From: a virus
Virus record (IMG/VR): IMGVR_UViG_3300007734_000705
Location: 1-47,431 of that record
Strand: one strand, 5' to 3'
Length of the DNA stretch: 47,431 bases
The position numbers were made by a program, and so were the translations under genes. The number at the start of each line of letters is the position of its first letter. Within the stretch, counting starts at the first letter, position 1. The notes under the pieces were generated by a model. The model was not told the origin of the DNA, did not search any database, and worked only from the letters and a program-made list of their open reading frames with translations. Below, in pieces: positions 16,220 through 28,016 of this stretch.

Positions 16220-17143
16220 ATGAGTAAATCCACCGTTTCGACCTTTGAGATTTTCGCCATGTTCCCGGACGCGGAATCGGCCCGGACCTACCTCGAACGC
16301 CAGCTTTGGCCGGAAGGCCCGACCTGTCCCGTTTGTGGACTGGGCGAGCGGATCACAACCCGGAAGGGCGGCTTCTACCGCTGCAATCAGTGCCAAGAGG
16401 ACTTTACGGTGCGCACCGGCACGATCTTCGAGCGGAGCCACATTCCGTTGCACAAATGGATTTACGCCATGTACCTGCTTCTGACGGCTCGCAAGGGCAT
16501 ATCCAGCTTGCAACTGTCGAAAGAGATTGGGGTTCGGCAGGCGTCGGCGTGGTTCATGCTCCATCGCATCCGGGAAGCTTGCGGCGGCGACCTGACCAAA
16601 TTGCAGGGCATCATCGAGATTGATGAAACCTACGTGGGCGGCTTGGAGTCGAACAAGCACGAGCGCGACAAGCTCAAGCAGGGGCGCGGACCTGTCGGCA
16701 AGACTGCCGTTCTCGGAATGAAGGAGCGTGGCAAAAAGGGGCGCACCAAGGCCATCAAGATCGACGCCACGGACGCCGGAACGATCACCGACATCATCGT
16801 GCAGAATGTCGAGGTCGGTTCCATGCTGCATACGGACGAGCATCTGTCCTATGCGGGCATCGGCGGCTTGTTCTTCAACCATGAGACGATCAATCACAGC
16901 GCGGGCGAGTATGTCCGCGACGGCGTGACCACCAACTCGATTGAGAGCGTCTTTGCCGTCCTCAAGCGCGGCCTCATGGGCGTGTACCACCACGCCAGCA
17001 AAAAGCATCTGAGCCGCTACGTTGACGAGTTCGCCTTTCGCTTGAACGAAGGTAACGTCCGCCACCACACCATGACGCGACTGCAAAGCCTCGTGGGCGC
17101 GGTCAAGGGCAAGCGGCTGACCTACGCGGACTTGATCGCATGA
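16220..17143 (+). CDS. IS1595-family (ISXO2-like) transposase
   Basis: 307 residues, full length for the family. An N-terminal zinc ribbon (CPVCGLGERITT...FYRCNQCQEDFTV) is followed by a helix-turn-helix region (GISSLQLSKEIGVRQASAWF). The DDE catalytic domain contains IDETYVGG, LHTDEHLSY and the third block TTNSIESVFAVLKRG. An AAGGAG ribosome site lies 8-9 bases before the ATG. All catalytic acidic residues are in place, so the enzyme is probably active. Its stop overlaps the ATG of the small downstream ORF. Confidence 0.95.
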   Translation: MSKSTVSTFEIFAMFPDAESARTYLERQLWPEGPTCPVCGLGERITTRKGGFYRCNQCQEDFTVRTGTIFERSHIPLHKWIYAMYLLLTARKGISSLQLSKEIGVRQASAWFMLHRIREACGGDLTKLQGIIEIDETYVGGLESNKHERDKLKQGRGPVGKTAVLGMKERGKKGRTKAIKIDATDAGTITDIIVQNVEVGSMLHTDEHLSYAGIGGLFFNHETINHSAGEYVRDGVTTNSIESVFAVLKRGLMGVYHHASKKHLSRYVDEFAFRLNEGNVRHHTMTRLQSLVGAVKGKRLTYADLIA

Positions 17144-17265: not shown

Positions 17266-18679
17266 TTGTCTGGCGGTCCTGCCGACACTGCCGTCCGATT
17301 CCGTTGATGCGGTCGTGACTGATCCGCCCTACGGGCTTGAGTTCATGGGGAAGGAATGGGACGGCGCGGATGGCTTTCGCCGCTCGCTCAATGAGGCTGA
17401 CATTGGCCGGGATAACGCCTTCGGTCGCATGTCGGCCCGCGCGCCAGAATATCGCACCGCTGGAACGGGCCAGAAGAATAAGCCCGGTATTGGTGAACGC
17501 GAGACTGAGTGGGTCAGCAACCAAGGCTGGAACCAATTTCGTTGCGAAGCTTGCGGCCATCTTTTCCACGGCGGCTCGCCTTGCCAGTGCGCCGAACCAA
17601 AGCCGATCCGTGCCGACAATCGCTGGAATCTCTTTCAGGCGTGGTGCGAGGCGTGGGCGCGCGAATGTCTCCGCGTTCTCAAGCCGGGCGGTCATATCGC
17701 TGCTTTCGGCGGGACGCGCACCTATCACCGTTTGGCGTGCGCCGTTGAAGATGCTGGCTTTGAGATACGCGATCAAATCCAATGGCTCTACGGGTCCGGC
17801 TTTCCAAAGTCTCGCAACATTGGCGAGGGTCGCGGGACGGCGCTGAAACCGGCACATGAGCCTATCGTGCTGGCGCGCAAGCCGTTGATTGGCACGGTCG
17901 CCGCCAACGTCGAGAAGCATAAGACCGGCGCGCTGAATATCGACACCTGCCGCGTGGGCGATTTTGTCAACGAAACGCCGCCCGGAACCGACCGCTACAA
18001 TCAGGCCAATTTCGAGCAGGGATACCGCCCGAGCGCGTACCCTACAAACGGCAGAGAAGGCGAGCCAAGTGCCGAACGTCGGTACACCGACAAAGGCGGC
18101 ACCAACTTTGCGATGAAGCCCGGACAGCGCCGGAAGGGCGGGCGCAGACCATCTACTCAAGAGGGCTACCAGCGACCCGGCGCAACGATGTTTCAAGACA
18201 AGACCGATTGGGAATTGTCGCCACAAGGCCGCTGGCCCGCCAACGTCATCCATGACGGGAGCGAAGAAGTCCTTGACGGCTTTCCTGATAGGGATGGCGC
18301 GGCGAGCAATGGAAAGCGCCTTGGCAATGGATACGGCGAAGGCTTTGGCGCGATGGAACAGACGGCGGGCTATGCCGATTCCGGCTCCGCAGCCCGTTTC
18401 TTCTACACGGCCAAAGCTGATAAAGGCGACCGCCTGAGTTCCAAGCATCCTACGGTCAAGCCGGTTGACCTGATGGCCTATCTCTGCCGCCTGATTACAC
18501 CGCCCGGTGGAGTGGTGCTGGACCTCTTCGCGGGCAGCGGCACCACTGGCATGGCCTGCCTTCGCGAAGGCTTCGATTGCATCCTGATCGAACGGGAGTC
18601 CGAATATGTCGCCGATATTGAGCGCCGGGTTGCTCATGTCTCAGGCACCGATTCCCCGCTGTTCGCGGGGGTCAAATGA
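17243..18679 (+). CDS. DNA methyltransferase (amino-methylating, DPPY type), IS passenger
   Basis: 478 residues from a GTG with GGAGGG six bases upstream. DPPYG near residue 27 is the catalytic motif IV of N6-adenine/N4-cytosine methyltransferases, and DLFAGSGTTGMAC near residue 430 is the AdoMet-binding motif I, giving the beta-class order (IV before I). Between them are an ECG-like Cys cluster (FRCEACGHLFHGGSPCQC) and a variable target-recognition region. No restriction enzyme accompanies it. It may protect phage or host DNA from restriction, or act as a stabilising cargo of the IS (inference). Confidence 0.9.
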   Translation: MFKILHGDCLAVLPTLPSDSVDAVVTDPPYGLEFMGKEWDGADGFRRSLNEADIGRDNAFGRMSARAPEYRTAGTGQKNKPGIGERETEWVSNQGWNQFRCEACGHLFHGGSPCQCAEPKPIRADNRWNLFQAWCEAWARECLRVLKPGGHIAAFGGTRTYHRLACAVEDAGFEIRDQIQWLYGSGFPKSRNIGEGRGTALKPAHEPIVLARKPLIGTVAANVEKHKTGALNIDTCRVGDFVNETPPGTDRYNQANFEQGYRPSAYPTNGREGEPSAERRYTDKGGTNFAMKPGQRRKGGRRPSTQEGYQRPGATMFQDKTDWELSPQGRWPANVIHDGSEEVLDGFPDRDGAASNGKRLGNGYGEGFGAMEQTAGYADSGSAARFFYTAKADKGDRLSSKHPTVKPVDLMAYLCRLITPPGGVVLDLFAGSGTTGMACLREGFDCILIERESEYVADIERRVAHVSGTDSPLFAGVK

Positions 18680-26585: not shown

Positions 26586-26680
26586 CCGAGCCTCCCGAGC
26601 AGGCCGGAAGCGACCACGATGATGGCCAGGATCAGGGCTATGCCCACGAGGCCCGAGCCGTATTGCGGGGCGGCCCTCAT
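26582..26680 (-). CDS. Small single-pass membrane protein
   Basis: 32 residues: a short polar start (MRAAPQYGSG) and one membrane segment (LVGIALILAIIVVASGLLG). Start overlaps the stop of the upstream gene and its own TGA overlaps the next ATG, so it is embedded in a coupled series. Confidence 0.5.
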   Translation of the reverse strand: MRAAPQYGSGLVGIALILAIIVVASGLLGRLG

Positions 26681-26934
26681 TCTGCCGCCTCCAGCATCCG
26701 CTCGGCCTGCTCGACGACGACGTAGCCCAGCGCCATCCAGCAGGCGGGGCAGCCGCGCTCGGCCGGCATGCGGCGGACGGTGGTGAACTCCGCGCGTGCC
26801 ACGTCAGGGCCGCCCATCAGGTCGGCAACCGCGTTCTGCACGGCGCCGGGGCTGTAGAGCGACGTGATGCGATAGGCCGTTCGGCCCGGCGTGCGGGGGT
26901 CGGCCTCAGATTCGATTGTGGCGGGTGCGGGCAT
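26677..26934 (-). CDS. First gene of leftward early operon, hypothetical
   Basis: 85 residues, ATG with CGGAGG five bases upstream. Contains a Cys pair in RGCPACWMALGYVVVEQAERML. First gene transcribed from PL. Unknown function; its place is that of immediate-early leftward genes in lambdoid phages. Confidence 0.6.
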   Translation of the reverse strand: MPAPATIESEADPRTPGRTAYRITSLYSPGAVQNAVADLMGGPDVARAEFTTVRRMPAERGCPACWMALGYVVVEQAERMLEAAE

Positions 26935-26972
26935 GCGGCCTCCGATGTTTCCCGTAGAACATTCTGGAGGTC

Positions 26973-27001
26973 GATTTAGGACAATGCGTCCTAAAGGTCA
27001 A
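26973..27001 (-). promoter_or_regulatory. PL, leftward early promoter
   Basis: On the - strand TTGACC (27001-26996), a 17-base spacer and TAAATC (26978-26973). The spacer is almost entirely an operator. Predicted start is near 26966, leaving a leader of about 30 bases with an ordinary ribosome site. The layout is the same as PR at 27732-27760. Confidence 0.85.
26975..26995. promoter_or_regulatory. Operator OL1
   Basis: TTAGGACAATGCGTCCTAA (plus one more T and A outside): a perfect two-fold site with 5-base centre, lying between the -35 and -10 of PL. Confidence 0.85.
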
Positions 27002-27015
27002 GGACTAAATGTCCT
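27001..27015. promoter_or_regulatory. Operator OL2
   Basis: AGGACTAAATGTCCT, same arms as OL1, centred 23 bp upstream of it relative to PL. It touches the -35. Confidence 0.8.
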
Positions 27016-27030
27016 ATCGGCTGTGGACGG

Positions 27031-27369
27031 CTAGCCGAAGATTTCCGAGCACCGGGAGGTGTTCCAGTGCCCGATGCTGTCCTCTTTCAGCCGAATCTCT
27101 TGGATCGCCCCCCGGGCATCGACCACGATGTCGGCCGTGCAGACCAACTGCGTGCGGGTGCCGGACGGCATCGATAGGGTCTGCCAGCTATAGACCTTAT
27201 CGCCGCCGCTCATGGTGAATTGGCGGATGGGTGGGCCGTTTTTGGCGAAAAAGCTGTCGGCCGGTTTGCCTACCCACGAACTGCGGGCTGCCTCGGTCGC
27301 CTGCTGCGTGGAACCGCAGGCGGCTAGCGCGAGCGCTGCGATAAGCGCCAGGCTCGTCGCATGGCCCAT
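27031..27369 (-). CDS. Lipoprotein expressed with the repressor, possible superinfection exclusion
   Basis: 112 residues. A signal peptide (ATSLALIAALALAAC) ends with a good lipobox LAAC. The mature part (SSWVGKPADSFFAKNGPP, DKVYSWQTL) recalls small BamE/OmlA-like lipoproteins of alphaproteobacteria. It lies one base beyond the repressor stop and before PL, so in a lysogen it would be transcribed with the repressor. Phage lipoproteins made in lysogens (for example T5 Llp) often block receptors; that role is inferred here. Confidence 0.75.
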   Translation of the reverse strand: MGHATSLALIAALALAACGSTQQATEAARSSWVGKPADSFFAKNGPPIRQFTMSGGDKVYSWQTLSMPSGTRTQLVCTADIVVDARGAIQEIRLKEDSIGHWNTSRCSEIFG

Positions 27370-27370
27370 G

Positions 27371-27682
27371 TCATGCCGCCCTTGAGCGTCTGAGGCCCTT
27401 GGACCGCCGTTTGGGCGCCTCAGAGGGCAGGGGAACCAGCGCCGCTGGCCCCTGGCCCTCGCCGGTCAACAGCCATTCCATGCTGACCCCGCAGGCCGCG
27501 CAGAACTTCGGTATGTAGCGCCAAGGGAGTGGGGTCCGGCTCTCGTATTGCTTGTATTTGCCCTGGTCGATGTCGAGTATCGTCAGGATCGGGTTTTGCT
27601 TCTCAAAACGCGCCATTCGCGCGGTTCGTACCCGCCTGATAAAGGCGAGCTTTTCTTCCGTCTCCGACATCCGATCAGCCAT
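27371..27682 (-). CDS. Lysogeny repressor, XRE-like, short form
   Basis: 103 residues from the ATG at 27682 (a second ATG at 27670). It contains a helix-turn-helix domain (FEKQNPILTILDIDQGKYKQ, then YIPKFCAACGVSMEWLLTGE), of the XRE/CI type. The C-terminal 25 residues are basic. There is no room for an S24 LexA-like self-cleavage domain. It diverges from the Cro-like gene across two operator sites. No Shine-Dalgarno sequence precedes either ATG. Confidence 0.75.
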   Translation of the reverse strand: MADRMSETEEKLAFIRRVRTARMARFEKQNPILTILDIDQGKYKQYESRTPLPWRYIPKFCAACGVSMEWLLTGEGQGPAALVPLPSEAPKRRSKGLRRSRAA

Positions 27683-27717
27683 GCGGGGATTTTCGCCGAC
27701 GGGCTGTTCACAGTCAC

Positions 27718-27732
27718 AGGACAATATGGCCT
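27718..27732. promoter_or_regulatory. Operator OR2 (imperfect)
   Basis: AGGACAATATGGCCT, one mismatch from two-fold symmetry, centred 23 bp from OR1. The spacing equals that of OL1 and OL2. Confidence 0.65.
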
Positions 27733-27760
27733 TGCTTTTTAGGACCAAATGTCCTAAATC
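27732..27760 (+). promoter_or_regulatory. PR, rightward early promoter
   Basis: TTGCTT (27732-27737), a 17-base spacer, TAAATC (27755-27760). Seven bases later comes the ATG of the Cro-like gene, so transcription should start at or one base before the start codon, giving a leaderless mRNA. Confidence 0.85.
27738..27758. promoter_or_regulatory. Operator OR1
   Basis: TTAGGACCAAATGTCCTAA core (with one more T and A outside), a perfect two-fold site between the -35 and -10 of PR; same arms as OL1. Confidence 0.85.
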
Positions 27761-27767
27761 GCGGTGC

Positions 27768-28016
27768 ATGTCAGAGCCAACATCATTCCGCTCGGTTATC
27801 GAACTGTGGCCTTCGCGTGAGGGCATGGCGTCAGACATCGGCGCCGGCGCCTCTGCCGTTTCCAAATGGTGGCAGCGGGACAGCATCCCCGCCGAATGGT
27901 GGGCACCGATCTTGGCGACCGAACGCGCCGCCCAAGCTGGAATCTCGGCCTTGATGATGACGTCGTGGGCGGCACGCCCGATCCCGCAGGCTATTCCAGC
28001 CGAGGCGCGCCCATGA
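27768..28016 (+). CDS. Cro-like regulator (carph-isopro domain type)
   Basis: 82 residues. SREGMASDIGAGASAVSKWW followed by QRDSIPAEWWAPILATERA is the helix-turn-helix pattern of the small carph-isopro proteins of alphaproteobacterial prophages. It faces the repressor across OR1/OR2, the position of Cro. No ribosome site precedes the ATG, which lies seven bases after the PR -10 box; translation is probably leaderless. Confidence 0.75.
   Translation: MSEPTSFRSVIELWPSREGMASDIGAGASAVSKWWQRDSIPAEWWAPILATERAAQAGISALMMTSWAARPIPQAIPAEARP

Follow-up and report, generated by a model that had tools for sequence, protein, structure and literature searches.

Putative operator pairs and a predicted anti-Shine-Dalgarno arm in the lambda-like switch of an apparently temperate, podovirus-like phage

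Genes and palindromes of the switch region

The window analyzed here, a stretch of 47,431 bp that makes up an IMG/VR virus record, encodes portal, internal virion and tail proteins that match podovirus-type families, and on the PL side it carries an integrase gene together with RecE/RecT-like genes. From this combination of genes the window phage looks like a temperate, podovirus-like phage. The window also contains an IS1595-type transposase gene adjoining an N6/N4 DNA methylase gene (16220-17140 and 17345-18676). No close relative was found among phage and plasmid records (50,697 phage records). Control of the switch by LexA was considered and rejected, as no GTTC-N7-GTTC site is present anywhere in the window.

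The features of the switch region are collected in Table 1. The AF2 model of the repressor consists of a five-helix HTH followed by a low-confidence tail. By sequence its nearest solved relative is the 434 repressor (profile match, E 1.5e-5), and weak fold matches (best E 0.0086) were obtained with 186, 434, P22 and restriction-modification (R-M) controller proteins. Thus the predicted fold and the sequence relation both fit a DNA-binding domain of the 434/P22 XRE type. The protein gave no Pfam match and has no C-terminal S24 peptidase/oligomerisation domain of the CI type. The Cro-like protein scored below the curated cut-offs for carph-isopro (32.2 against 38), YdaS (18.2 against 30) and Phage_CI_repr (19.7 against 22).

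Table 1 Features of the switch region in the window; promoters, starts and RNA arms are predictions.
Feature	Position	Strand	Description
First PL gene	26677..26934	-	85 aa, no family match
Shine-Dalgarno arm of first PL gene	26936..26943	-	GGAGGCCG, predicted to pair with the anti-Shine-Dalgarno arm in read-through RNA
Anti-Shine-Dalgarno arm	26966..26973	-	CGACCTCC, PL -10/discriminator region, upstream of the predicted start
PL promoter	26973..27001	-	-35 TTGACC, 17-bp spacer, -10 TAAATC; predicted start near 26965
Inner PL operator (OL1-like)	26978..26992		TTTAGGACAATGCGTCCTAAA with core AGGACAATGCGTCCT between PL -35 and -10; exact palindrome; position conserved in relatives
Outer PL operator (OL2-like)	27001..27015		AGGACTAAATGTCCT, abuts PL -35
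Small lipoprotein gene	27031..27369	-	Lipobox LAAC; 1 nt past repressor stop, 15 bp before outer PL operator
Repressor	27371..27682	-	103 aa, single-domain XRE/CI-like HTH; PHROG repressor matches
Repressor promoter (PRM-like)	27683..27718	-	-35-like TGTGAC beside outer PR site, -10-like GAAAAT, 6 nt, ATG
Outer PR operator (OR2-like)	27718..27732		AGGACAATATGGCCT, one mismatch; centred 43 bp before repressor ATG
PR promoter	27732..27760	+	-35 TTGCTT, 17-bp spacer, -10 TAAATC; predicted start is the A of the cro ATG (27768)
Inner PR operator (OR1-like)	27741..27755		TTTAGGACCAAATGTCCTAAA with core AGGACCAAATGTCCT in PR spacer; centre 66 bp from repressor ATG
Cro-like protein	27768..28016	+	carph-isopro/YdaS-like HTH, predicted leaderless

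Three exact AGGAC-N5-GTCCT palindromes and one copy with a single mismatch form two mirror-image pairs in the window, centred at 26985/27008 (PL) and 27725/27748 (PR). The initial annotation had placed one such palindrome between the -35 and -10 of both early promoters and a second one 23 bp further out, with one mismatch in the outer PR site, about 740 bp between the pairs, and the repressor and lipoprotein genes flanked by them. All of this was confirmed in the sequence: the spacing is 23 bp in both pairs, the 740 bp hold from midpoint to midpoint, and the mirror symmetry of the pairs amounts to a 44-nt inverted repeat that is 77% complementary. The three exact single sites compare with 0.02 expected in the window (0/100 shuffles), and the two site pairs with up to three mismatches compare with none expected and none in 100 shuffles. 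When two mismatches were allowed, 20 single sites were found against 15 expected, which is not significant, and therefore only near-exact sites count. No exact palindrome occurs elsewhere in the phage, outside the switch.

A promoter scan with the E. coli consensus found no promoter, and the PL and PR hexamers are weak by that consensus, but conservation among relatives speaks for the assigned -35 and -10. The PL promoter was read from the sequence, with TTGAC conserved in the relatives described below and the start taken from homology with PR. Aligned on the inner sites, the order at PL is outer site, TTGAC, inner site and an A/T-rich -10, and the order at PR is outer site, TTG, inner site and an A-rich -10; in the relatives the outer PL site is followed by TTGAC and the outer PR site mostly by TTGC, TTGA or TTGT. 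The ATG of cro is found 13 nt past the inner PR site in the window; of 33 loci, 25 have exactly this distance and 32 fall within 11-14 nt, leaving no room for a cro leader. On the repressor side, 25/33 loci have exactly 66 bp between the inner PR centre and the repressor ATG, which places the centre of the outer PR site at -43. In 26/33 relatives the 6 nt before the repressor ATG are preceded by a -10-like hexamer (with A in position 2 and T in position 6), and 4-of-6 matches to TATAAT were found 20 times at the 6-nt offset and at most once at any other offset. This geometry suggests leaderless starts for both cro and the repressor gene. The initial annotation had noted neither these starts nor the layout of the repressor promoter, nor the PL hairpin described below.

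Linkage of the sites to the repressor in related loci

A scan of viral contigs for the exact pair pattern, using the DNA alone, returned 26 loci. A repressor homologue was present in 23 of these (all except L022, L023 and L026), and a Cro homologue in 22. When the gap was left free (0-30), the 23-bp spacing accounted for 26 of 35 matches and a spacing of 24 bp for four. In the opposite search direction relatives were chosen by their repressor protein, which put to the test the condition that the initial annotation had named as refuting its proposal, the lack of the sites in relatives with the same repressor: every relative with E<1e-19 carries the sites, while the weak repressor homologues (E>1e-7) are without them. 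Co-occurrence in both search directions gives strong support to the sites as operators of the neighbouring repressor. Because the DNA-only scan finds repressor homologues and the closest relatives chosen by protein carry the sites, the palindromes are very probably the operators of the 103-aa XRE repressor of the window, in a lambda-like phage switch.

The Cro homologue is found together with the sites nearly as often as the repressor, and Cro proteins usually share the operators of the repressor, as would be expected if the Cro-like protein or a host regulator were the main ligand of the palindromes. Against such binding, the locus L004 has the sites and the repressor with no detectable Cro homologue, and the exact site is found nowhere else in the window phage. 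We regard it as highly improbable that the repressor is not the main ligand, and it is likely that the sites are shared by the repressor and the Cro-like protein.

The two pairs had also been described as matched, with identical geometry. The spacing is indeed the same, but the strength is unequal, as the outer PR site contains at least one mismatch in 33/33 relatives measured, often with GGCC beside TTGC. The pattern scan required one perfect pair, which in all cases turned out to be the PL pair; in the relatives chosen by protein the outer PR site matched less well than its PL counterpart in 6/6 cases where both could be read. A third PR site with a GGAC-N5-GTCC core directly before the repressor ATG is present in 18-19 of 33 relatives, with a -10-like hexamer inside its spacer; it is absent from the window, which has two PR sites. 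In our reading the sites are named OR1 and OR2 (with OR3 in many relatives) and OL1 and OL2.

The operator words GGGAC and AAGAC were found in further loci with repressor homologues. With an unchanged layout, AAGAC is present beside related repressors in L191, L265 and L274, and GGGAC in L212, L214, L215, L218, L220, L224 and L226; these loci constitute a natural series for studies of repressor specificity. Runs of the same palindrome word were observed in L103 (Geosporobacter) and L023, where no repressor homologue of the family was found nearby.

The named hosts of relatives are Bradyrhizobium (L144) and a Hyphomicrobiales MAG (L126). These two loci come from a variable-gap scan of genome contigs, which yielded at least two useful loci among the matches listed, the rest being mainly repeat-rich genomes. 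A further pattern search of genomes added only the already known Bradyrhizobium locus and L210, which is without a repressor homologue, and profile searches of genomes gave few hosts, with matches (L199-L202) that did not carry the sites. The podovirus-type portal PF12236 was found in only 7 of 30 relative contigs, some of which may be incomplete, which suggests that phages of more than one virion type carry the switch module.

No homologue of the lipoprotein was found in the relatives, and the gene was rejected as a part of the switch since it is private to the window phage. The slot between the repressor gene and PL holds unrelated small genes in the window and in L028, L029, L009, L019, L007, L126, L036 and L011, and the genes in this slot mostly resemble those for lipoproteins, secreted or membrane proteins. 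It is likely a site for lysogenic cargo, perhaps with a role in superinfection exclusion.

The initial annotation had suggested that looping between the PL and PR pairs is possible, and the repressor gene is flanked by operator sets in the relatives as well, which speaks for such a loop. The inner-to-inner distance between PL and PR varies from 379 to 892 bp in the relatives, largely because genes have been inserted between the repressor and PL, and it shows no helical phasing (Rayleigh R 0.12-0.28 for 10.4-10.6 bp, below the 95% limit of 0.30 for random distances). The looping proposal also finds no support in the lipoprotein gene, which is private, or in the repressor, with its one HTH domain and low-confidence tail and without an oligomerisation domain of the CI type. 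That the pairs serve DNA looping is consequently very unlikely.

A predicted anti-Shine-Dalgarno arm at PL

In the relatives, positions ~4-13 past the inner PL site pair with the Shine-Dalgarno stretch of the first PL gene. This arm is paired in the minimum free energy fold in 49 of 52 relatives, and a Shine-Dalgarno-like triplet in 47. The arms are mostly 5-10 bp and end at the predicted start. The pattern was first described on 35 loci, after which 18 more were obtained, either with relaxed PL patterns or through the protein, and the numeric test was written after these 18 had been displayed; the later set excluded seven PR-type matches (cro ATG at 12-13) and L210. The own arm paired with the own leader at -11.4 kcal/mol, and foreign arms paired with the same leader at -7.7 kcal/mol (n=52, z -11.6, 0/2000 permutations), where the 52 leaders are non-redundant at <80% identity over 45 nt and share ancestry, so that the permutation values overstate independence. 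For the later-fetched loci alone the same comparison gave z -5.1 (n=18, 0/2000 permutations).

The first PL genes of the 52 relatives form 48 groups that are unrelated to one another (a few starts are possibly mis-called), which indicates that the device belongs to the promoter and not to a gene. Taken alone, the hairpin of the window is unremarkable (z -1.4), and the case for a PL hairpin thus rests on comparison. An ordinary CI/Cro switch could also present such an inverted repeat as a pyrimidine-rich discriminator that faces a purine-rich Shine-Dalgarno sequence and has no role. As this explanation would predict, foreign arms also pair moderately, the window hairpin is not exceptional, and the permutation test applied as a control at PR, where no hairpin was expected, was not null (z -3.5, 3/2000), so that common base composition accounts for some of the PL signal. 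It accounts poorly for an advantage of 3.7 kcal/mol for own arms, with 0/2000 permutations for the discovery set and likewise for the later one, and for arms that stop at the predicted start before unrelated genes. We therefore consider an inverted repeat without a role unlikely.

The location of the PL start decides in which RNA the arm is found. Among the 52 relatives, A is rare at positions 8-11 past the inner PL site and occurs 18 times each at positions 12 and 13. From the PR geometry and this base preference the PL start should lie at position 12-14, and the arm would then be outside the PL RNA and inside RNA from the repressor promoter. The predicted probability that the Shine-Dalgarno sequence is unpaired is 0.14 in read-through RNA against 0.43 in PL RNA (Wilcoxon p 1.8e-7). 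The start sites are themselves inferred, and an error of 5-8 nt would place the arm in the PL transcript, where the hairpin could act as a regulatory leader, e.g. an antitermination element, a thermosensor or the site of a phage protein. This possibility is distinctly unlikely, as the homologous PR start lies 13 nt past the inner operator in 25/33 loci and thereby beyond the arm, the A preference at PL points to the same place, and the sequence of the arm varies freely while pairing is kept, which speaks against a fixed protein site; Rfam gave no match.

The favored reading, an arm present only in read-through RNA, concerns transcripts that enter PL from the repressor side. In the window no intrinsic terminator was found between the repressor operon and PL, and the gap between the lipoprotein stop and the outer PL site is 15 bp; in nine relatives the corresponding gap from the repressor stop is 1-20 bp. 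In 10 of the 52 relatives an intrinsic terminator precedes PL in addition to the arm. Arm strength showed a trend only with terminator presence (p 0.14), and since the arms are not significantly weaker where a terminator is present, terminator and arm appear to be layered and not alternatives. In L025 the stretch between the repressor gene and PL contains an ORF of 104 aa that lies on the other strand, facing the repressor gene, and the PL arm of this locus is among the weaker ones.

Proposed switch and its relation to known systems

Comparison of the loci established the linkage between operators and repressor, their spacing, the leaderless geometry and the covariation of the arm. From these we infer binding, cooperativity, activation, start sites, read-through and silencing as follows. 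Since the inner sites lie between -35 and -10, bound repressor would block both PL and PR. The outer sites, 23 bp or about two helical turns away, would probably be filled cooperatively with the inner ones, and repressor at the outer PR site, at -43 of the leaderless repressor promoter, would probably activate its own gene. The repressor gene, the lipoprotein gene and the PL operon are co-directional with no terminator in the window phage, and repressor transcripts should therefore run on into the PL operon. In this read-through RNA the arm encoded in the PL -10/discriminator would close the first PL gene, while RNA initiated at PL would be without the arm and translated. The untranslated read-through RNA could in addition be exposed to Rho, by which the operon would be shut. 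We are fairly confident of the joint reading, in which the phage's own one-domain repressor uses the palindromes as its operators within a lambda-like switch and the PL arm closes the first gene in read-through RNA.

In lambda the operators lie inside PL and PR with second sites about two turns off, a site is located at about -42 of PRM, and cI is transcribed toward PL. The window region resembles OL/OR of lambda in its inner operators within PL and PR, its second sites, its predicted leaderless repressor and the repressor gene directed toward PL. As in lambda, the repressor and cro genes diverge from promoters that are overlapped by operators, and PL, on the far side of the repressor gene, has an operator set of its own. 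In position, the outer PR site at -43 is close to OR2 at lambda PRM (~-42). The window differs from lambda by its 103-aa one-domain repressor without the S24 peptidase/oligomerisation part, by having two PR sites instead of three, by the lack of support for looping, and by the promoter-embedded anti-Shine-Dalgarno arm predicted at PL. R-M controller (C) proteins bind paired operators and both activate and repress; C.AhdI, C.BclI and C.Csp231I are, like the window repressor, small single-domain HTH proteins of similar fold, by a weak fold match only, whereas the window repressor has a phage context and operators at two promoters.

Lambda cI is leaderless, according to a report (PMC8630535) that also covers the immunity region of CP-933P from E. 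coli O157:H7 with its PaaR2/YdaS pair. CP-933P shares with the window a small CI-like repressor opposed to a YdaS-type Cro, a leaderless repressor, inverted-repeat operators and lambda-like PRM/PR logic, but operator sequence and spacing differ and no PL arm is described in the passages considered (PMC8630535). In the immB region of the telomere phage PY54, leaderless mRNAs have been shown for both cI and cro (PMC4488713); the likeness to the window phage, leaderless by prediction, lies in these starts, while the operators and the Cro logic differ and the passages considered describe no PL arm (PMC4488713). Among open-licence papers we found none on the operator or the PL arm, which is weak evidence of absence. 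What is new compared with known lambda-like switches is the conserved promoter-embedded PL arm.

The closest functional parallel to the arm is found in T4, where a helix in upstream transcripts hides the Shine-Dalgarno sequence in the leaders of gene e, soc, 49 and I-TevI, and where RNA from a promoter within the 5' arm escapes the helix, with a 100-fold effect on the expression of gene e (PMC3014915). The window family resembles gene e in the predicted hiding of the Shine-Dalgarno sequence by an upstream arm, here with covariation. In T4, a lytic phage, the arrangement serves early/late timing, whereas in the window family it would separate lysogenic from lytic expression at PL, with unrelated genes downstream. 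IS10 and IS50 similarly shield their transposase genes from outside transcripts. By analogy with gene e, the PL arm likely silences early genes in lysogens. We lean towards the view that a temperate phage family, with named hosts that so far are alphaproteobacterial, insulates its lytic operon by a promoter that also acts as an anti-Shine-Dalgarno arm, making read-through RNA untranslatable and PL RNA translatable, with the arm kept by covariation and the first gene replaced nearly everywhere.

The analysis thus provides a repressor-operator system, defined by sequence, in a group of temperate phages that have no close relative in the 50,697 phage records, and a case where a lambda-like layout is kept with a one-domain repressor. 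If the proposed role holds true, the PL arm would explain in general terms how the lytic operon stays unexpressed in a lysogen whose repressor is transcribed in its direction.
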